From Gammaproteobacteria bacterium (GTDB taxonomy: Bacteria; Pseudomonadota; Gammaproteobacteria; SZUA-229): a stretch of 37,565 nt of DNA. Location: positions 1-37,565 of the forward strand of contig QIHT01000097.1 of NCBI GenBank assembly GCA_003229115.1, read 5' to 3'. The notes under the pieces were generated by a model. The model had not been told where the DNA came from. It searched no databases and saw only the letters and a program-made list of their open reading frames with translations. A program made the translations under genes and the position numbers. Below are positions 10,279-37,081 of this stretch, in pieces. The first letter of the stretch is position 1; each line of letters opens with the position of its first letter.

Positions 10279-10734
10279 TCAATGTTTGATCCGGTAACGC
10301 AGTACCTGTGTAAAGGTGCCATCGCCGTTGTTAGTGGAGTCCATTTCGCCTGTGATGCCTGAATATTTCCCGCTACCACCGATGATGCTGAGGTTTGATG
10401 TGCCCTGGTCGAATTCACGTCCGGCAACCTGAATACTGCCGTTATCGAAGCTTAGCGTCCATTGGCACTGGAAGCTGTGCTGGACACGAGTACGTATGCA
10501 TATGCCGCTATTATTGCCCAGTTTCATCATATCTTCATCCAGTAACGGTTGATCAAATGTCAGAACATCACCGACCGAATCACCTGGATCGCCGTTGTCG
10601 ATATAACGGGCAGGCTTGTCGCGGGCATCGGCGATGGTGACGAGAGTTTGCGGTGATTGTTGTGTGCAGGCTGTTATTACTATAAGACTTGCAGTGAGCA
10701 GGGCAATTTTTACTGAAAATGAGTGTCTATTCAT
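10279..10734 (-). CDS. Predicted lipoprotein with an allene-oxide-cyclase-like barrel
   Basis: This is a 151-residue exported protein. Its N-terminus is a lipoprotein signal (Lys, hydrophobic stretch, then the lipobox-like VITAC with Cys about residue 23). The mature part contains LSIIGGSGKYSGITGEM followed by a short strand ending the chain. That pattern is seen in dirigent/allene-oxide-cyclase-like beta-barrels. The function in bacteria is unknown, and the barrel call rests on this one pattern. The gap of about 126 bp to the TIGR02647 gene holds no credible gene. Confidence 0.65.
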   Translation of the reverse strand: MNRHSFSVKIALLTASLIVITACTQQSPQTLVTIADARDKPARYIDNGDPGDSVGDVLTFDQPLLDEDMMKLGNNSGICIRTRVQHSFQCQWTLSFDNGSIQVAGREFDQGTSNLSIIGGSGKYSGITGEMDSTNNGDGTFTQVLRYRIKH

Positions 10735-27630: not shown

Positions 27631-29010
27631 TTAATTTTCCATTTCGGATTCTTCGTCCTTATCTGTGGGTGAGGTCAGTTCATACTGGCGGATCAGTCGT
27701 CGAAGACGTGGCCGTGAAATACCGAGGATTTCACATGCTTTACCCCGGTGCCAGTTGGTTGACTCAAGGGTTGCTGCTATGTGTTCTTTTTCAACATCTT
27801 GTAAACTAAGATTTAGTGTTGAGTTGCATGGCTTGCTTTCTGGTTGTTCAGCGTCTTTTATGTTTGTTGGTAGAAGATCCAGTGTTATGGTTTCGCCATG
27901 ACATAAGGCAACTGCTTTCATTAACACGTTTTCCAGTTCGCGGATGTTTCCCGGCCAGGAGTATTTGTAAAAGGATTCTATGACATCAAAAGAAATGCGT
28001 GTAACAGTGTTATGCATCTCCTTGTTGATGCGTGCCAGTAATGCCTGTACCAGTGTTGGTAGATCATCCATGCGTTCACGCAGAGCAGGCATATGTATAG
28101 TGACTACCTGCAGGCGATAAAAAAGATCTTCACGGAAAAGCCCATTTTTAACACTTTCCTGAAGATCAGCATTCGTTGCAGCAATAACACGGGCATTGGT
28201 CTTCTGAATCTGGCTGCCGCCAACAGGTATGAATTCCTTTTCCTGTAGTACACGAAGGAGTTTTGACTGAACGGTGGGACTGAGCTCGCCTATTTCATCC
28301 AGAAAAATTGTGCCATTATCGGCCATGGCAAATTTTCCTGCCTGGCGGTTGGTGGCACCGGTAAATGCCCCCTTCTCATGACCGAACAAGTCCGATTCAA
28401 GCAGTGATTCGACCAGTGCTGCACAATTAATCGCGATGAATGAACCCGATGCAGATTGGCTGGCCTTATGGATTGCACGCGCAACCAGTTCCTTGCCGGT
28501 TCCTGATTCTCCAGTAATTAATACGGTTACTGGTTTTTGAGCAACCATACCAATGGTTTTATAGATCTCCTTCATCTCGTGACTACTACCCACCATGGTA
28601 TCGGGCAGTAATCCAGCATCCTCCAGTTCCATATCTGTATCCTCGAGACTGGATCGCATCAGGGATGAAGCTATCGCGTTATCGAGTTCATCAATATTGA
28701 TTGGCTTGTGAATGTAATCACTGGCACCAAGTTGCATGGCTTTAATCGTACTGTTCATGTCGTGAAATGCGGTGATCATGATTATCGGAATATCAGGCAG
28801 CAGCTCTTTGAATTCGGGCAGGCCTTCAAGTCCGGTACGACCTGGCATATGAATATCAAGAATAATTAAATCCGGTTTTGTTTTACGTGCTGACTCAAGA
28901 CCGTCATCTATATTGTAGGCAAGTTGCACATCAAATCCCTGACTGCGAAAGTGAAGTTGCAGTGTTCTGCAACTGGCTGTGTCATCATCGATAATCAGGA
29001 GATTGCTCAT
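27631..29010 (-). CDS. NtrC-family sigma-54-dependent response regulator
   Basis: This 459-residue activator has a receiver domain (Asp8-Asp10, phospho-Asp52 in LDIHMPG, Lys102), a AAA+ domain and a Fis-type helix-turn-helix. The AAA+ domain has Walker A GESGTGKE (167-174), the sigma-54 contact GAFTGA (214-219), Walker B TIFLDE (234-239) and the arginine-finger region FREDLFYRL. The HTH is at about 420-445 (GKACEILGISRPRLRRLIR). All elements for activation of RNA polymerase with sigma-54 are intact. It lies 6 bp after the kinase gene on the same strand and is the last gene of the radical SAM / hemG block. I could not find a clear -24/-12 promoter nearby, so its targets are open. Confidence 0.95.
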   Translation of the reverse strand: MSNLLIIDDDTASCRTLQLHFRSQGFDVQLAYNIDDGLESARKTKPDLIILDIHMPGRTGLEGLPEFKELLPDIPIIMITAFHDMNSTIKAMQLGASDYIHKPINIDELDNAIASSLMRSSLEDTDMELEDAGLLPDTMVGSSHEMKEIYKTIGMVAQKPVTVLITGESGTGKELVARAIHKASQSASGSFIAINCAALVESLLESDLFGHEKGAFTGATNRQAGKFAMADNGTIFLDEIGELSPTVQSKLLRVLQEKEFIPVGGSQIQKTNARVIAATNADLQESVKNGLFREDLFYRLQVVTIHMPALRERMDDLPTLVQALLARINKEMHNTVTRISFDVIESFYKYSWPGNIRELENVLMKAVALCHGETITLDLLPTNIKDAEQPESKPCNSTLNLSLQDVEKEHIAATLESTNWHRGKACEILGISRPRLRRLIRQYELTSPTDKDEESEMEN

Positions 29011-29016
29011 AATTTT

Positions 29017-31638
29017 TTACAGGGCTGATTCAATGGAGTCGGGTTCGGTTGAATTAACCTGCTCCATAGCAGTTGCCTTTGACTCTTCCAGAGGGCTAGT
29101 GGGCAATATTACAATTGCACATGTGCCACCTTCGTTCGTTGGTTGCAAATGAACATTGCCATGGTGTTGCGTGATAATACGCTTGACGATGGCCAGTCCA
29201 AGGCCGGTTCCTTTTGTGCGGGTAGTAAAGAACGGCTCGAATATTTGTTGTGCTTTTTCTGGTTCTATGCCATGTCCATTATCACAAATTTCAACACGTA
29301 TTTTGGGACGATCATTGCCGAGCTCCAGACTCGCTGTGATAGAAATCCAGGGTGATTCGCCGACAAGTGATTCAGTTGCCTGTGCTGCATTGATGATCAT
29401 GTTGCCAAATGCCTGGCGCAGTTTGCTGCTGTCTCCATGCAGGGTCGGCAGGCCAGGTTCACACCAGGGCCTGATTTCAATACCGTGATCTCTGATTTGT
29501 TTCTGGGCGAAAATGATGGCTGTATTGAGTAATTTGTCGATGCTAATCCATTCCGGTTTTAATGCTTCAGGACGTGAGTATGAAAGTAGATCCTCCAGAA
29601 TCTCTTCCATGTAACCGACCTGCTGCAGTGCGATTTCTCTGAGTTCCTGTTCTTCATCGCCCCATTTATGGCCGGGTTTTTTGCCGAGTATCTGCAGTCC
29701 CATCTTTATTGACGACAACGGGTTACGCAAGTCATGAGCAATCATGCTGGCCATCTGTCCTGTGGCGGCCAGTGCCTTGCTGTTGGCTATTTCACGGTTT
29801 CTGTTATCTACTTCTGTTTCAAGTCGTTTGCGTTCAGTAATATCTTCTTTTACAGCCAGGTAGTGCGAAATATTGCCGTTGCTATCCCGGATTGCAGAGA
29901 TACGGGCAGATTCCCAGTACAACTCGCCGTTTTTCTTTTTATTGTGAAATACACCGCGCCATTCTTTGCCATTAGAAATGGTGGACCATAGATCACTGTA
30001 TTCATCATTGCTGGTTTCGCCTGACTTCAGAATACGGGGGTTCTTTCCCTTGATTTCATCGAAGCTGTAACCCGTCAGTTCTGTGAATTTAGGGTTTGCA
30101 TATTCAATTTCGCCCTCGATATTTACAATCATGACGGTGGCAGGGCTTTGTTCTGCAGCTGAATACAGTTTGCGTAACATATCCTCGGTTTCACGTGCCT
30201 CGGTCACATCTTCGCCAATACAGGTTACGCCGATTACCTGTAAGTCAGCATTTTTTATCAGTGAATAATTCCACACCACCTGAATTTTTTCACCGTTGTG
30301 TTTCTGGATGGTGCTTTCATGCTGTGATGGTGAATTCCTGCTGGTTAGCAAGTTGTTAAATACTTCCAGGTTTTGAGTGCGTTGTTGCTGGGGGATAAAA
30401 AGTGAGAACCAGTCTGCACCGATAACATCTTTGTGTTGCCAGTCAGTTAGTTGTAGCAATGCATTATTGCAGAACTCTATTTTGTTCTCGGTGTTTATAC
30501 TGACAGCCAGCAGGTCTATGTTTTCCAGTGTGTCCCTGAATCGTTTCTCAAATTCTATCTGTGACTCTGCAAGGTGATGTTTGATTCTTGATCGTGTAAC
30601 TAGCACTGACCCTATCAGGATTAGGATGAACATGGTGCCGTACATAGGCAGATGCTGTCTGAACAGAGGGCCAACAGAAAGTTGTTCAGACGGTATAAAC
30701 GAAACAGTTCGCCATGTCACGGGTCTGGCGTTTTTATTTTTATTGCTGGTCTTTTCCTGCTGGAAAGGCCGTATTGTAGTAAACGTGAACATGCCCTGGT
30801 GATTGATGAATTGCCCACTTTCACTGGCATGTATTTTTTTCCATGCTTCTGGATGGGCGGTGCCGAATGTTGCCTTTTTGTCGAACATGAAGCCCCATTC
30901 TTCCTTCCTGTCTGGACTGCTTAGCCAGTAGCCGTCATTGTCTAGCAGTGCGACATGATCAGCAATATTTGATGTGGCCTGCCTGAAGTTGTTGATTAAT
31001 CGGTCGCCGAGATAATTCAGCAGTAAGACGCCTTTCTTTTTGCCTGTTGATTCATATACCGGTGTTCCAATCCGTAGCATTGATTTATAGGGGGATTGAA
31101 TTCGACCCTGTTCAACATTCAGATCCAGTGGTGATATATAAATCTCGTCCTTAGCCAGTTGCCATGATTGTCGAAAGTAGTAACGCCGGCTTTTGTTCTG
31201 TAGTTTTTCAGATGCAACGACATGTGGATTTCCATCATTGTAATTTACACGCACAATCTCAGTGCCCGATTTGTCCAGAAGACGAATCTGGTCATAGAGA
31301 GCTTTCTGGCGACTTAATATCTGAAATTCAATTTCGAGTATGGTGCGTCCACGAGGATTACTCTCGTCAACAAGGCCCTGCAGCTCAATATTGTGCGCAA
31401 GGTACATCAGGTCTGAAACAATACCGTTCAGTTCTCTGACTATGGACGATTGTCCCAGTGATATATTAAGGCGTTCCGATGATTCCCGTTTAACTTCTTC
31501 GGATTTGGCCATAGTGTAAAAATGAGCGGCTCCGGTGGTTACAAGAAATAGAAAAGCGATAGTAAATACGACTATAAAGTCCCTGCTGGTGCATAACTGC
31601 AGGCAGGATTTAATCATGTCACGTGAAATTACCCGCAT
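29017..31638 (-). CDS. Cache-PAS-PAS sensor histidine kinase
   Basis: This 873-residue membrane kinase has TM1 (about 21-41), a periplasmic double-Cache-like domain (about 45-325) and TM2 (about 332-349). Two PAS domains (about 362-480 and 487-602), HisKA with His635 (MIAHDLRNPLSS) and HATPase_c (GNMIINAAQATE, DNGHGIEPE, GTGLGLAIV) follow. It has the architecture of NtrB/ZraS-type partners of sigma-54 activators. The ATG at 31638 overlaps the previous gene by 10 bp; an ATG at 31617 is possible. The Cache domain suggests a small periplasmic ligand. The PAS domains show no residue that I can assign to heme or flavin. Confidence 0.93.
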   Translation of the reverse strand: MRVISRDMIKSCLQLCTSRDFIVVFTIAFLFLVTTGAAHFYTMAKSEEVKRESSERLNISLGQSSIVRELNGIVSDLMYLAHNIELQGLVDESNPRGRTILEIEFQILSRQKALYDQIRLLDKSGTEIVRVNYNDGNPHVVASEKLQNKSRRYYFRQSWQLAKDEIYISPLDLNVEQGRIQSPYKSMLRIGTPVYESTGKKKGVLLLNYLGDRLINNFRQATSNIADHVALLDNDGYWLSSPDRKEEWGFMFDKKATFGTAHPEAWKKIHASESGQFINHQGMFTFTTIRPFQQEKTSNKNKNARPVTWRTVSFIPSEQLSVGPLFRQHLPMYGTMFILILIGSVLVTRSRIKHHLAESQIEFEKRFRDTLENIDLLAVSINTENKIEFCNNALLQLTDWQHKDVIGADWFSLFIPQQQRTQNLEVFNNLLTSRNSPSQHESTIQKHNGEKIQVVWNYSLIKNADLQVIGVTCIGEDVTEARETEDMLRKLYSAAEQSPATVMIVNIEGEIEYANPKFTELTGYSFDEIKGKNPRILKSGETSNDEYSDLWSTISNGKEWRGVFHNKKKNGELYWESARISAIRDSNGNISHYLAVKEDITERKRLETEVDNRNREIANSKALAATGQMASMIAHDLRNPLSSIKMGLQILGKKPGHKWGDEEQELREIALQQVGYMEEILEDLLSYSRPEALKPEWISIDKLLNTAIIFAQKQIRDHGIEIRPWCEPGLPTLHGDSSKLRQAFGNMIINAAQATESLVGESPWISITASLELGNDRPKIRVEICDNGHGIEPEKAQQIFEPFFTTRTKGTGLGLAIVKRIITQHHGNVHLQPTNEGGTCAIVILPTSPLEESKATAMEQVNSTEPDSIESAL

Positions 31639-31952
31639 TGTATTATCAGGTGTTGTTTAACACGTTCAATGTAAACATGGTCGGTTTCGTTGGATTCGCG
31701 CGGCAACAGAAACAGAAGTTTTGCAGCTATGATGTAGGGCCTTCTGGATGCTTCTCCAGCTGGCCGGGTTTCAGAAATAATTTGCTGCAGATACACCAGC
31801 GCCTGATCAGGATCTTCACAGTAACGCGGTAATGTTACCTGTTGGGAGTACCAGCGCGCAGCAAAGGAGATTAATACCAACAACAGCACCACTGGCAGTA
31901 TTACCTGTAACGGATTAAAGGGTCTTGAGTTATCAAGTTCACTGTTTGTCAC
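31629..31952 (-). CDS. Small single-pass membrane protein in the hemG operon
   Basis: This 107-residue protein has one membrane helix (about residues 18-33, LQVILPVVLLLVLISFA). A soluble C-terminal domain follows, with the pattern PRYCEDPDQALVYLQQIISE and a basic/acidic end. A GTG start is used 12 bp after hemG, and the end overlaps the kinase start. I recognise no family. Its position between a porphyrin oxidase and a sensor kinase suggests an accessory membrane component or a link between them. Confidence 0.7.
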   Translation of the reverse strand: MTNSELDNSRPFNPLQVILPVVLLLVLISFAARWYSQQVTLPRYCEDPDQALVYLQQIISETRPAGEASRRPYIIAAKLLFLLPRESNETDHVYIERVKQHLIIQCG

Positions 31953-31964
31953 TTTTTTTCCGTA

Positions 31965-33386
31965 TCAGTTCTGAGGTTCCAGTTTTAGCTTATTCAGCGA
32001 ATAAGTGGTTGACGACGATTGAATATTACGAAGAATATTTTCTGACGAAAGCATTGCGCAAACAAGCCTGTCACGTATTGAGATACCGCCACGGTAATTG
32101 GCTTCAAGATGCAGGCCAGGCAGTTGCGTCAGTAATTTCTTCAGTTGCTGCATGCGAGAATAATAATCGCCATGATATAGAGGTAACCCCTGTTGATGTC
32201 GGTTAATGCGTACCATTTCAGGTTCACCATGAATGCTGAGTAAGGGTGCCAGAGTTTTCATGGTTTCATTGATCAAACAATCATCGCTCAATTTTATAGC
32301 TTCAGGATTTTTTGCGCCGCCGAAATAGTTACTCAACAAGGTTTTGCCAGGGGGGGCATGATTGCTGAATAATGAACTCATCCACAAACAGCCATTCAAT
32401 GATGTTTTACTGTTACTGCCACCCTTGCTCTGGGTCAGAAATCCATTGCCATCCAGTGGGTGTTTGATGGCTGTTTTATCGAACCCGGTGTGTGCTACAA
32501 CCAGAGAGGCATACTTTATATCATCCAGTAGTTTTGCCAGTTCAGCACTATGAGCTGCAAGCAGGGTAGCCGCAATGTTTGCCGGCACACTCAGCACAAC
32601 CTGTCTTGCATTAACTGAGCGTTCGCCGGCTGTCGTATCTGCGGTGACATGCCAGCCATTTTTGGTTTGTAATAAATTGGTCACTGTGTGACCGCCGCGA
32701 AAACAAACGCCATGATTGTATGCGAGTGATTTAACCAGTGTTGCCATGCCATCCTGAAAAGAGAAGGCTTCGGTTTCCGTGCCAGTTTTTCGTTTCAGGA
32801 TGCGATGAACAAAAACACCCATGGCGATACTGCCATAGCGTTTTTCAAGGGCGACCAGGCGGGGCAGAATACTGCTGGCGTTGGCGAGTTCCGGATCTGA
32901 TGCCAACGGCCCTGCTACGTAGGGTCCCATTGCCTTGTCGAGTACTTCGCGGCCTAGCCGTCGGATGATGAATTCACTCACTGTTTCATTGCTGGAACCG
33001 CCTTTTGGTATAAAAGGCTCTAGCATCATGCGCAACTTGCCGCGAGTACTCCACATACCGGAGGCCATCATCGGGCCCAGCTTCATCGGTAATTTATTCA
33101 GTTGGCCATGGTTAACAATGTAACGATGGCTGGTGTCAGCTCTTGGTTTCTTGCAATCATCCAGTCCGGATTCTGTAATAAACCGGTTTACCTCCGGGCG
33201 GAAATTCAGCACCATGGCAGCAGCCTGTTCGGTCAGGTAACCATCGCGATTATCACTCTGGATTTTGCCGCCAGGGTGGTCTTCCTTTTCCCAGACTTCG
33301 ACACAGGCGTCTTCGCGTGTCAGCCGTTGTGCGATTGACAGGCCGGAAATGCCGCCGCCGATGATGAGGACATCTAGCTCGCTCAT
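31965..33386 (-). CDS. hemG: HemY-type protoporphyrinogen oxidase
   Basis: This FAD enzyme of 473 residues is expected to oxidise protoporphyrinogen IX to protoporphyrin IX, or a related porphyrinogen. The FAD fold is VLIIGGGISGLSIAQRL at the start. Typical family stretches include KIQSDNRDGYLTEQAAAMVL, PFIPKGGSSNETVSEFIIRR, GREVLDKAMGPYVAGPLASD and the C-terminal HLEANYRGGISIRDRL. Its start codon overlaps the stop of the radical SAM gene by 4 bp (ATGA), implying coupled translation. The symbol follows the TIGR00562-style name; it is unrelated to the flavodoxin-like E. coli HemG. Carotenoid desaturases share the fold but are less similar to these motifs. Confidence 0.88.
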   Translation of the reverse strand: MSELDVLIIGGGISGLSIAQRLTREDACVEVWEKEDHPGGKIQSDNRDGYLTEQAAAMVLNFRPEVNRFITESGLDDCKKPRADTSHRYIVNHGQLNKLPMKLGPMMASGMWSTRGKLRMMLEPFIPKGGSSNETVSEFIIRRLGREVLDKAMGPYVAGPLASDPELANASSILPRLVALEKRYGSIAMGVFVHRILKRKTGTETEAFSFQDGMATLVKSLAYNHGVCFRGGHTVTNLLQTKNGWHVTADTTAGERSVNARQVVLSVPANIAATLLAAHSAELAKLLDDIKYASLVVAHTGFDKTAIKHPLDGNGFLTQSKGGSNSKTSLNGCLWMSSLFSNHAPPGKTLLSNYFGGAKNPEAIKLSDDCLINETMKTLAPLLSIHGEPEMVRINRHQQGLPLYHGDYYSRMQQLKKLLTQLPGLHLEANYRGGISIRDRLVCAMLSSENILRNIQSSSTTYSLNKLKLEPQN

Positions 33387-34636
33387 ACGCTGGGTCTCCG
33401 TGGCGTATTGTTGCCGAAACGCCGTGATGTCAGTGCCGAAAGATGTTTGGTTGTGACTTCGTATTCGCCCAGTTCAGCAACGTAGGCTTCGGCACGTTTT
33501 TTGATCATTTTGCGTAGAAACTGCGGTATTTTGCCTAACCGTTTTTCGGCTTGCTGGCTCCAGTAAATCCCGGCAGCGGCAGTTTCGATATAGGGTTCGA
33601 TAACGGCGCCGCCTTGCGGAACATAAGTGCACCACGGGTCAGCGTCCATCAGGTCATTTCCGGCCGCAACCGGTCGTGCCCGGCAACCGCCGCATAATTG
33701 TCGGTATTCACATTTGCCGCAGGCGCCGTTCAGTTCTGGTTTGCGTAACCTCAGGAAATCTTGCGCATGATTCCAGGTATCAGTAAATGATGTTTGCCGT
33801 ATGCTGCCAACTTCATCTTCGATATAGGGGCAGGCAGTAATACCGCCTTCCGGGGTAACGCGGCAGTAATGAGTACCGGCAATGCAGCCATCACCTTCCT
33901 GTCCGCTGATACGGTTGAGCAGGGAATCGGGATCCTTCTGCAAAGCAACACGTTTAAAGTGAGGCGCACATCGAGGCCGGATGATCAGATCGGGAGTGTG
34001 TTTTTGTGCTTCTATAATTTCTGCCAGTACCTGTTCGTATCGCTCAGGTTTAATGTCAGTAAACGATTCTCCACGACCGGTGCAGACCAGAAAAAAGATA
34101 TTCAGTACCCGGGCACCACTGCTGCGGGCAAAGTCGATCATGGCTGCTAGTTCGTCGGCGTTGTTGTCGGTGACTGTAAAATGAATCTGGAAACTCAGTT
34201 GCTGTTGACGGCATTGTTCAATGCCTGCCATGGTTTTTTCCCATGCGCCGGTTTGACCTCGAAAGTTGTCGTGTTTTTTAGCATCCAGGGAATCGACGCT
34301 GATACCGGCACCGAGCAAACCCGATTGTTTTAGCGAAGCCACGCGCCGTTCGGTCAGCATCATGCCGTTGGTGCCGACCACCATGGCCAGCCCGAGTTGT
34401 GTGCCGTGCGAGATAATGTCTTCAAGGTCACGCCTGACTAGCGGTTCGCCGCCGGTTAACACCACCATGGTGCCATCACCGCAATCAACCACTTCATCTA
34501 AAAGATGACAGACTTCTTCGGTCGTCAGTTCATTGTCATTGCCATGATGCAAGGTGTCCGCATCCAGATAACAATGTGCGCAGGCGAGATTGCAGCGTCG
34601 GGTCAGGTTTATGGCGAGTAAGAGCAGGTCGTTCAT
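33383..34636 (-). CDS. Radical SAM/SPASM protein with C-terminal PCP_red-like module
   Basis: This 417-residue protein has the radical SAM cluster motif CNLACAHC (Cys15, Cys19, Cys22). GGEP follows at residues 62-65. A SPASM-type auxiliary cluster region has cysteines at 251, 258, 269, 306, 309, 315, 318 and 336. The C-terminal residues 357-403 (WSQQAEKRLGKIPQF onward) match the PCP-reductase-like helical module repeated in the neighbouring stress protein. The closest known relatives by pattern are NirJ/AhbC/AhbD, which act on tetrapyrrole side chains. With hemG downstream, a heme-type substrate is likely, but which reaction is unknown. The start has almost no Shine-Dalgarno sequence because a repeat element begins 10 bp upstream. 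Confidence 0.88.
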   Translation of the reverse strand: MNDLLLLAINLTRRCNLACAHCYLDADTLHHGNDNELTTEEVCHLLDEVVDCGDGTMVVLTGGEPLVRRDLEDIISHGTQLGLAMVVGTNGMMLTERRVASLKQSGLLGAGISVDSLDAKKHDNFRGQTGAWEKTMAGIEQCRQQQLSFQIHFTVTDNNADELAAMIDFARSSGARVLNIFFLVCTGRGESFTDIKPERYEQVLAEIIEAQKHTPDLIIRPRCAPHFKRVALQKDPDSLLNRISGQEGDGCIAGTHYCRVTPEGGITACPYIEDEVGSIRQTSFTDTWNHAQDFLRLRKPELNGACGKCEYRQLCGGCRARPVAAGNDLMDADPWCTYVPQGGAVIEPYIETAAAGIYWSQQAEKRLGKIPQFLRKMIKKRAEAYVAELGEYEVTTKHLSALTSRRFGNNTPRRPSV

Positions 34637-34646
34637 TTTAAAAGAC

Positions 34647-34880
34647 AGTGAAAAGTGAAAAATGAAAAGTGAAAAATGGAAAGACCAACTGTCATCTCGA
34701 CCAGAGGGAGAGATATTGTTCTACAGCAGTATAAGATCTGCTCCCTCTGGTCGAGATGACGAAGAAACAAGCCAGAGTTACTGTGAAAAAATGAAAAATA
34801 AAAAAACAATAGAGCCATCACCAGCACAGCACCTTTTTGTTTGGCGTGCATTTTTCACTTTTCATTTTTCACTTTTCACT
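34647..34880. repeat. 234-bp element with perfect 32-bp inverted ends
   Basis: The ends 34647-34678 and 34849-34880 are exact inverted copies made of GTGAAAA/GTGAAAAATG-type units. Inside it is a second perfect inverted repeat of 20 bp (34691-34710 and 34741-34760, GTCATCTCGACCAGAGGGAG). It contains no credible gene. The right end overlaps the last codons of the universal stress protein gene and supplies its TGA stop. The left end is 10 bp before the radical SAM start. Confidence 0.88.
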
Positions 34881-37081
34881 TTGTTATTGCGTGGATCATC
34901 TGGATCCAGGTGAAAAACACCGCGTTCTGCCCAGATATTTTTAACCGCTTCAACGGCGATTTCGGTAACGCGTGGCAACTTGTTTCGTTTGGCCCAGCCT
35001 TCAATTTCCTGCTGCAGCATACCTCGCACCACATCCGGCGCACTGGCGATGCGGGCACGTGCCGAGTCATCCCAGGGCAGGGTTTCATCGGTGGCTTTAG
35101 AGCCGGCGGAAAACGTGGTGAGTACTGACTGGATGAAATCCCGGCCAATTTCAGTCATGCCTTTCTGGCTGGCAATGGTTTCTGCAGCCGTTACCGTCAT
35201 GTCCCGGCAATAACCCTGCGGGATGTTTTGCAGTTGTTGGCGCGCTTCTTCAGTCCAGAGTGGATTGGCGGCAGGCGCTGGCTGATCGGTTTCTGTTTTG
35301 CCCTCTGCAGTACCAGCCCCGAAGCCGGCAAACGGACATTTGCTGACTTTTCCGTTGTTAGCTATTTTGGCTTTACCCTCAACACCAAGCTGCGCCTCCA
35401 TGGCTTTGCGTGCAGCTGCCAGCCCGGCTTCAGCTGTTTCCAGGTAGATTTGTGTGTGGCCGTTGTTGTGAGCGTATTCTTCAATGCGTTTTTTCGACAT
35501 TTCACGCATGAAACCTTCCGGGGCTTGCATCAGACGCGCCAATGCAGGTGCCGTCCAGTGCAGCGGTGTATCGATTATAGGTGCCGAGCTTGCTGAAGAT
35601 TGTGACGCTTCATCAACAAAGGCTTCGATATGCGCCGGTTCAACGCTAAAAGTGCTGGCCGCCCGTGCTTTTTTCTCTGCACGCATTTTCAGGTTATTAC
35701 GCAGAGTGATGTCCTCGATGCTATCGAGCATGGCCTGTGCAGCCGCGCTCCATTGCATAGGCTGATCGGTGACACGAGTTTTGTTTTGTGTGTCGTCGAA
35801 GTTATCCACGATTTCCTGCATCAACTCTTCAGCGCGGTTGGGCATCAGTTGTGCCGTGGCTTCATCAACGATGCGTTCAGTGATGACTGTATGGCCGCGT
35901 TCCTGTGCATAACGCAGTATTGCCATGCGTGCCATGTTCTGCACAAAGTCCGGTGCTTTGGCGAGGCTTTTTTCTGCTTCGTGTGTCCACGAGATGGTGG
36001 CTTCGGCCAGTACATCAATGCGTGGCTGGAATTTGCGCTGACTGAGCAGTACGCAGCAACCAACATTGCGCATCAGGTTTTCTGCATTACCGCCGATATC
36101 CAGTTCATCGTCAGCATGAATACCCAGCTTGCCAATGACCAGTAACGAGGGATCAAGCTTGCGCACATACTGTTCAACGGCATCGTGTGCCTTGCCATCG
36201 AGTAACTGGGTGTGGATTTCGATGTCGTATTCATCGGCGATGGATTGGGCAACCATCAGGTGGCCTTCATAAATTTTTGCCAGTCCCGAGTCGATGATTT
36301 CTTCGTGCAGTTTTTCCTGCTCCTTGAAACGGAACACCTTGCCGGCTTCTTCGGAGAGTACGCCGGCAATGCGATTGAAGGCGACGTAGTGATAATAGGG
36401 ATCGAATGCCGAGATGACATGTAGTGGAACCTGCCATTCCTGTGCTAATGACATGGCCGTCAGCAGCCCACCAAATGCACGTTTAGAGCCATCAATGGCG
36501 GCAACAATCGGGCCGCTGCTTAAATCACGTTGCGGGTTTTTGATAACCAGGCTGTCGATATCAGCACGCCTGACGACCCGGTCACAAACTGTGCCGATAC
36601 GGCTGCCCTTGATAGCACCAAGGCCAACTGCACCGATGACCAGCAGATCATAGTTGCCGTTGTTGGTTTCATTGGTCAATGCGCGGTAGTTTTTACCCTC
36701 CAGCGGTCGGCCACTGTAGTGGACTTTATTTTCATTACAGACGCGTTCTACCTGATCCAGGTAGGAGTCGGTGATGATCGAAAGGCCGCGTGTTATCAAG
36801 CTGTCATGAATGTCGCGCTGACGTTCCAGTTCATTTTCTTCACGGAACTGTTCGGGTAAACCACCTTCCATTTGCCGGAAACGGAGGTCATGCATCTTTG
36901 CCGCATAGGCATGTGTGGCAGTTATGCTGGCATTCCACACGCCCGCAATTGCAACAGCTTCCACAATACCCCGGTTGGAATGATCTGAAGCATCGGCTGC
37001 CAGCAGGATATTCTGATAAACCGGTAGTGCCGGTGCCTTAGTACTGGCAGGTGTTGCTGCAGCTTTGCTCTGTGCGCTCAT
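34862..37081 (-). CDS. Tandem universal stress protein with five PCP_red-like repeats
   Basis: This 739-residue soluble protein starts with two Usp domains (about 21-182 and 190-348). The first has the full ATP-binding pattern G-x2-G-x9-GT (Gly150, Gly153, Gly163-Thr164). The second keeps the glycines but ends in Gly-Asn. Five helical repeats follow, beginning near residues 364, 443, 508, 608 and 669. Each opens with W-(T/S/D)-x-x-A and a later Pro/Met-rich helix, like the PCP_red module and like the end of the adjacent radical SAM protein. A lone KCPFAGF motif (Cys582) sits between repeats 3 and 4. The last six residues KVKSEK come from an inserted repeat. A role in tetrapyrrole binding or scaffolding is inferred. 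Confidence 0.85.
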   Translation of the reverse strand: MSAQSKAAATPASTKAPALPVYQNILLAADASDHSNRGIVEAVAIAGVWNASITATHAYAAKMHDLRFRQMEGGLPEQFREENELERQRDIHDSLITRGLSIITDSYLDQVERVCNENKVHYSGRPLEGKNYRALTNETNNGNYDLLVIGAVGLGAIKGSRIGTVCDRVVRRADIDSLVIKNPQRDLSSGPIVAAIDGSKRAFGGLLTAMSLAQEWQVPLHVISAFDPYYHYVAFNRIAGVLSEEAGKVFRFKEQEKLHEEIIDSGLAKIYEGHLMVAQSIADEYDIEIHTQLLDGKAHDAVEQYVRKLDPSLLVIGKLGIHADDELDIGGNAENLMRNVGCCVLLSQRKFQPRIDVLAEATISWTHEAEKSLAKAPDFVQNMARMAILRYAQERGHTVITERIVDEATAQLMPNRAEELMQEIVDNFDDTQNKTRVTDQPMQWSAAAQAMLDSIEDITLRNNLKMRAEKKARAASTFSVEPAHIEAFVDEASQSSASSAPIIDTPLHWTAPALARLMQAPEGFMREMSKKRIEEYAHNNGHTQIYLETAEAGLAAARKAMEAQLGVEGKAKIANNGKVSKCPFAGFGAGTAEGKTETDQPAPAANPLWTEEARQQLQNIPQGYCRDMTVTAAETIASQKGMTEIGRDFIQSVLTTFSAGSKATDETLPWDDSARARIASAPDVVRGMLQQEIEGWAKRNKLPRVTEIAVEAVKNIWAERGVFHLDPDDPRNNKVKSEK

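Follow-up and report, generated by a model that had tools for sequence, protein, structure and literature searches.

USP5, a radical SAM protein that carries a PCP_red module (radical SAM-PCP) and a HemY-type protoporphyrinogen oxidase are encoded side by side in the window, by which we mean the whole stretch of DNA analysed (37,565 nucleotides). With modest confidence, we favour the view that the three proteins form a dedicated cassette which modifies a tetrapyrrole and delivers it to CydA*, in a cytochrome c-linked complex of the cytochrome bd-like kind. The association with CydA* is seen directly in gene order and in co-occurrence among genomes, whereas the chemistry of the cassette is what we infer.

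The PCP_red module is common to USP5 and its radical SAM neighbour

The original prediction held that two adjacent proteins share homologous helical modules, six in all. This was borne out, since a Pfam search identified the common module as PF08369 (PCP_red), with five stretches in the 739-aa USP5 (E = 1.5e-39) and one copy in the 417-aa radical SAM protein (E = 3.9e-11), and profile comparisons linked the copies to each other (below). Both proteins correspond to genuine long reading frames of the minus strand, and they and their modules are located as follows:

34862–37081, minus strand: USP5, 739 aa, two Usp domains and five PCP_red modules (Pfam Usp E = 1.8e-25, two stretches)
35849–35989, minus strand: R1, PCP_red module of USP5, 50.3 bits, the best conserved module
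35609–35752, minus strand: R2, PCP_red module of USP5, 19.1 bits, the most divergent
35414–35557, minus strand: R3, PCP_red module of USP5, 38.7 bits
35114–35257, minus strand: R4, PCP_red module of USP5, 30.5 bits
34934–35074, minus strand: R5, PCP_red module of USP5, 31.4 bits
33383–34636, minus strand: radical SAM/SPASM protein with a C-terminal PCP_red, short form, 417 aa (Pfam Radical_SAM, SPASM, PCP_red)
33422–33562, minus strand: sixth PCP_red copy, in the radical SAM protein, 47.2 bits

The five USP5 modules lie inside the span proposed for the repeats (34862–36000), but the sixth copy falls outside it. With module scores taken on the genome scale, the curated PF08369 cut-off of 32.5 bits was passed singly by R1, R3 and the radical SAM copy; R4, R5 and R2 remained below it and are backed by profiles of the orthologue families. 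In profile-profile comparison of these profiles (U1–U5, for R1–R5), U1, U3, U4, U5 and the radical SAM module were linked mutually and to BchB modules at probabilities of 95–99%. U2 was linked to U3–U5 and to the radical SAM module at 88–97%, and no link of U2 to U1 or to the BchB modules was found in this comparison. Having also the lowest score, R2 is the most divergent repeat, just as it had been singled out. In R1, 26 of 48 positions are conserved at 95% or more in the orthologue alignment, and its GHT motif contains the invariant His397.

Structure prediction had been named as a check on the homology, and no unrelated folds were seen among R1–R5: in the AlphaFold2 model of USP5 (mean pLDDT 80.5) they have the same helix-helix-helix pattern, mostly at pLDDT 80–95, and the secondary structure of R2 is predicted to be that of the other modules. 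Whole-model fold searches were uninformative on the modules, as the Usp and radical SAM domains dominated the matches.

To our knowledge, BchB/ChlB of protochlorophyllide reductase is the only characterised protein with PCP_red. The solved structures with PCP_red or the BchB-ChlB C-terminus include 2KRU, 2L09, 3AEK, 2XDQ and 2YNM. USP5 was rejected as a BchB/ChlB (DPOR subunit B), as it reached 70.7 bits with TIGR01278 and 75.4 bits with NF002789 against cut-offs of 490 and 509, and these matches are confined to the C-terminal module. The window's genome, which is about 82% complete, gave no further PCP_red except for one sub-threshold partial match (15.4 bits). The organism thus shows no sign of chlorophyll production, and a photosynthetic role was discarded: without another PCP_red over the cut-off, no BchB was found in this 82%-complete genome.

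It had also been suggested that the two proteins bind the same small molecule, or that their modules contact each other. By analogy, the first idea gains support, with tetrapyrroles as the candidate class of ligand, because BchB/ChlB holds PCP_red, the radical SAM core is nearest to AhbD/NirJ2, and a protoporphyrinogen oxidase gene is next to the pair. The modules may equally well contact each other, and within BchB the role of PCP_red could be structural.

USP5 combines two Usp domains with a five-module array

The remaining features of USP5 are these:

36533–37021, minus strand: Usp domain 1, ATP-binding pattern G-2x-G-9x-G-T (G150, G153, G163, T164)
36032–36514, minus strand: Usp domain 2, degenerate nucleotide motif G-2x-G-9x-G-G-N (orthologue alignments)
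35330–35338, minus strand: Cys-Pro-Phe (C582-P583-F584) in the R3–R4 linker, by likeness to the CP-type heme regulatory motif

The G-2x-G-9x-G-[S/T] motif is complete in Usp domain 1, with G150, G153 and G163 invariant and T164 conserved at 90% or more in the orthologue alignments, and it is altered in domain 2, which has a long conserved FDPYYHYVAFNRIAGVLSEEAGKVF stretch. Conservation of USP5 peaks in both Usp domains and in R1 and falls to very low levels in the linkers. C582 and P583 stand at 95% in the orthologue alignment, where the R3–R4 linker averages 31%, and the CP motif (nearly always CPF) is present in 61 of 65 orthologues within a linker that is otherwise variable. Similar Cys-Pro motifs are called heme regulatory motifs, e.g., in heme oxygenase-2 and ALAS. 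Judged by this resemblance, the motif in the linker is a putative heme regulatory motif.

The number of modules is also kept, five copies being detected in 75 of 93 USP5 orthologues. Five copies after two Usp domains are indeed unusual, as first supposed, but not unique, for the architecture recurs in many Gammaproteobacteria, in Gallionellales and in at least one Mariprofundus.

The ATP motif retained by Usp domain 1, the CP-type motif in the linker and the two-component system of the same operon (see below) would suit a USP5 that acts as a heme- or ATP-dependent stress sensor or regulator of the locus, with the PCP array as its sensory part. We consider this improbable: the operon already has a sensor kinase and a sigma-54 regulator, and such a function would leave the modules in the radical SAM enzyme unexplained.

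A MITE-like repeat with 37-nt terminal inverted repeats (34637–34885, no strand assigned) lies between the USP5 and radical SAM genes and parts them, the usual gap in relatives being about 6 nt. It contains a 20-nt perfect palindrome, encodes the final residues of USP5, and has about 40 partial matches scattered over the genome.

The radical SAM core is nearest to heme-modifying enzymes

The CX3CX2C cysteines (C15, C19, C22) and the SPASM cysteines (C251, C258, C269, C306, C309, C315, C318, C336) are present in the radical SAM-PCP protein and invariant in 12 orthologues. Its core scored 316.7 bits with NirJ2 and 300.2 bits with AhbD, both under the equivalog cut-off of 500, and in all 49 orthologues the core was nearest to these two families. 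For the two proteins scored in full, NirJ2/AhbD were ahead of the best peptide-maturase model by about 170–190 bits. Heme propionates are the site of action of both AhbD, a decarboxylase, and NirJ, which removes them (PMC7242693).

The partner carries one PCP_red module in 26 loci, as here, and three detected modules in 51 loci. For the long form, a possible divergent fourth module is suggested by the structure model and weakly supported by profiles. A very conserved tail, FRNRAMMKAVRRMKGFGMKELNFDA, was observed in the long form (L042–L044, L050 and most long-form loci).

Among solved structures, the radical SAM model best matches PqqE, SuiB and SkfB, all of them peptide-acting SPASM enzymes; the matches to PqqE and SuiB count against heme-type chemistry. 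They would agree with PCP_red modules that serve for protein docking and hold no tetrapyrrole, next to a radical SAM enzyme that modifies a protein or peptide, e.g., a CydA* subunit or USP5. The presence of one module in both neighbours fits docking, and R1–R5 have diverged mutually yet are conserved by position, as an assembly scaffold would be. Still, we find this explanation rather unlikely in view of the bit-score lead of NirJ2/AhbD over the peptide maturases, the HemY gene that comes next in nearly every locus, and the lack of any recognised short precursor-peptide gene in the loci, where the only conserved small gene is that of a 107-aa protein.

The operon is conserved in sulfur- and iron-oxidising bacteria

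Downstream of the gene pair, the operon continues in the window with the following genes:

31965–33386, minus strand: HemY-type protoporphyrinogen oxidase (TIGR00562, 230.1 bits, equivalog cut-off 97.85)
31629–31952, minus strand: 107-aa conserved protein, conserved at this position in 47 loci
29017–31638, minus strand: PAS-containing sensor histidine kinase with a PF21623 sensor domain (Pfam), conserved in 53 loci
27631–29010, minus strand: NtrC-type sigma-54 response regulator (Pfam), conserved in 42 loci

No Pfam or NCBIfam match was found for the 107-aa protein. Elsewhere in the window (10279–10734), a protein of 151 aa has matches to the plant dirigent and allene oxide cyclase-like barrel families (PF03018, PF18678), which is unusual for a bacterium.

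A single-sequence scan of genome contigs gave no relatives, and an alignment-based scan of named genomes gave 270 related stretches, the best 80 of which were kept for examination; these are best matches and not a random sample. Carriers among these 80 include the sulfur oxidisers and symbionts Sedimenticola, Thiodiazotropha, tubeworm symbionts, Beggiatoa relatives and Thiothrix, as well as Gallionella, Ferrigenium and a Mariprofundus. The hosts of the gene pair are non-photosynthetic sulfur- and iron-oxidising bacteria, and one carrier, Sedimenticola hydrogenitrophicus, is in culture. Among 40 relatives, the pair was found in only one other genome. In the 369 genomes of the class, any PCP_red occurs in 25, some of these being BchB and some small proteins, and Usp-PCP or radical SAM-PCP genes occur in 14. 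No account of a PCP_red array or of this locus was found in our literature searches.

All frames of 100 loci and of the window were clustered in order to compare neighbourhoods. The recurrent order is HEAT-repeat protein, cupredoxin-like protein, USP5, radical SAM-PCP, HemY, 107-aa protein, histidine kinase, sigma-54 regulator. The order of USP5 and the radical SAM gene is fixed in the 80 loci examined, the latter being on the strand of USP5 in 79 of 79 loci with a median gap of 6 nt, and HemY comes next on that strand in 72 of 73. The cupredoxin-like protein is named from its conserved His, Cys and Met, Pfam giving only a CarboxypepD_reg domain. In Gallionellales loci, a propeller-cupredoxin protein and a cytochrome c replace the HEAT and cupredoxin-like proteins; a beta-propeller related to nitrous oxide reductase, with a cupredoxin-like end, was observed there and at L090 595–2430.

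The cassette is associated with CydA*

Often, a divergent group of genes for CydA*, a cytochrome c and a cytochrome c/EB_dh protein stands ahead of the HEAT gene. CydA*, which resembles cytochrome bd subunit I, adjoins in 56 of 93 loci, even with the interruptions by contig ends. In the window, USP5 is encoded close to the contig end, and another contig of the same genome (C86) carries the genes for an EB_dh-type cytochrome c, a cytochrome c, CydA*, the HEAT protein and the cupredoxin-like protein, arranged and oriented as expected and ending where the operon of the window should begin. In an attempt at joining the contigs, the ends of C86 and C10 were found to have no stretch of at least 15 nt in common; their adjacency is deduced from the conserved gene order, between ends without overlap.

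Three CydA* orthologues match PF01654 above the cut-off, and CydA* retains the N-terminal His and Glu that align with a solved bd oxidase. The GRQPW motif is absent from the CydA* alignment and from the copy in the own genome. CydA* was therefore rejected as a canonical, quinol-oxidising subunit I of cytochrome bd, in spite of the PF01654 match.

We compared the occurrence of USP5 or radical SAM-PCP with that of CydA* in the 369 class genomes. CydA* is present in 15 of them, 13 of which also have a USP5 or radical SAM-PCP gene; one genome has such a gene without CydA*, two have CydA* alone and 353 have neither (Fisher p = 5e-21, uncorrected for relatedness, some genomes being of one genus). 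In a phylum-wide sample, which partly overlaps the class sample, USP5 was found in all four CydA* genomes, and there was one extra weak USP5-type match.

The exceptions are few. On one contig of genome G117, the CydA*, HEAT, cupredoxin-like and 107-aa genes are present but those for USP5, radical SAM and HemY are absent from their midst, and a search of this 90%-complete genome yielded no PCP_red. Since its CydA* locus lacks the cassette, the cassette may be dispensable. The region itself (L143, G117:C348, 2786–4152) is a CydA* locus with the cassette gone, a natural deletion. In G217, CydA* lies on a short contig and is not accompanied by PCP_red, and in G237 divergent USP and radical SAM genes occur without CydA*.

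Sigma-54-type promoters precede both halves of the locus

Sites of the sigma-54 type (−24/−12) were found at a median of 42 nt before the HEAT gene and 408 nt before the CydA* gene in 38 loci with divergent CydA* and HEAT genes, most of the loci having them near these positions, and for the most part they score above the top site of nearly all 50 shuffles, contig C86 of the own genome included. The divergent promoters are conserved, one for each half of the locus, and the operon encodes a sigma-54 activator; on these grounds the whole locus looks like one regulon. In most loci, the position of the CydA* site about 400 nt before the start codon (e.g., L141 4040–4801) gives a long untranslated leader, which may hold an RNA element.

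A possible function in tetrapyrrole modification and delivery

The HemY of the operon is the sole HemY found in the genome of the window, and likewise in each of 12 pair-carrying genomes. HemJ was found in 9 and ferrochelatase in 11 of these 12, so that most of them would not need the operon enzymes for ordinary heme synthesis. In G000, G371 and G237 no HemJ was found, and there HemY could be the ordinary heme enzyme. Proteins of the heme d1 family are missing in 4 of the 12 genomes, three of which are at least 97% complete. Because most of the genomes have HemJ and ferrochelatase and four of the twelve lack heme d1-family proteins, the cassette probably makes something other than bulk heme b or heme d1. 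That the genes simply make ordinary heme b or heme d1, through an AhbD or NirJ2 function, would agree with the finding that, of the named families, NirJ2 and AhbD are closest to the radical SAM protein. This possibility is largely refuted by the distribution of ferrochelatase and of the heme d1 family, the equivalog cut-offs of AhbD and NirJ2 being also missed by a wide margin, and we regard it as very improbable.

For the favoured cassette, the following steps can be proposed. HemY would oxidise a porphyrinogen, and the PCP_red modules may bind or hold a porphyrin-type substrate, given that BchB, the porphyrin-reducing subunit, contains them. The radical SAM enzyme would alter a side chain of the tetrapyrrole, as its AhbD/NirJ relatives do, and USP5, with its ATP-type Usp domain and CP motif, would ferry the product from this enzyme to the apo-cytochrome. 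The occurrence of PCP modules in carrier and enzyme alike would allow hand-over of the ligand or docking of both proteins. More tentatively, the locus might make and insert an undescribed tetrapyrrole (a heme modified at a propionate or in the ring, or a chlorin like heme d) specific to such bd-like, cytochrome c-linked complexes.

If this were true, the PCP_red arrays would be the first example, beyond chlorophyll synthesis, of arrays dedicated to carrying porphyrins, and PCP_red would gain a role outside photosynthesis. A 2023 paper (PMC10374445) called the modification and insertion of hemes in cytochrome bd-type enzymes unknown, and according to PMC10839748 the cytochrome c-linked bd-like enzymes have yet to be characterised. 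The conserved, co-regulated cassette of radical SAM enzyme, porphyrinogen oxidase and PCP_red array provides named genes and proteins for such study, in hosts that are important in sulfur and iron oxidation and in animal symbiosis.

Comparison with known systems

BchB/ChlB has a C-terminal PCP_red domain, the same 45-residue module (W..EA...L...P.FvR.......yA...G...IT), to which the modules described here are up to 43% identical. Unlike BchB/ChlB, USP5 and radical SAM-PCP are devoid of the nitrogenase-like catalytic domain, and USP5 has five copies of the module; a BchL/BchN partner was not seen in the locus, and the hosts of the array are chemolithotrophs.

AhbD (heme b synthase) and NirJ2/NirJ, the closest sequence families of the radical SAM-PCP protein, have the same layout of radical SAM and SPASM domains, but the present protein falls below their equivalog cut-offs and carries a PCP_red module, three being detected in the long form of other loci.

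The tandem universal stress proteins Rv2623, TTHA0350 and UspE have, like USP5, two Usp domains per chain. Rv2623 and TTHA0350, which are tandem ATP-binding USPs, are the best solved-fold matches of the USP5 model, and the ATP motif is present in domain 1 of USP5. What USP5 adds to these proteins is the C-terminal array of five PCP_red modules, together with very conserved Usp stretches.

Finally, CydA* may be set beside the cytochrome bd-type oxidase superfamily, with the cytochrome c-linked CydA of the OR-N/OR-C type (Murali et al. 2021, cited by PMC10839748) as a candidate subfamily: it matches PF01654 and keeps the His and Glu. What sets CydA* apart is its neighbours, i.e., cytochromes c, an EB_dh-cytochrome, the HEAT and cupredoxin-like proteins and the PCP cassette.
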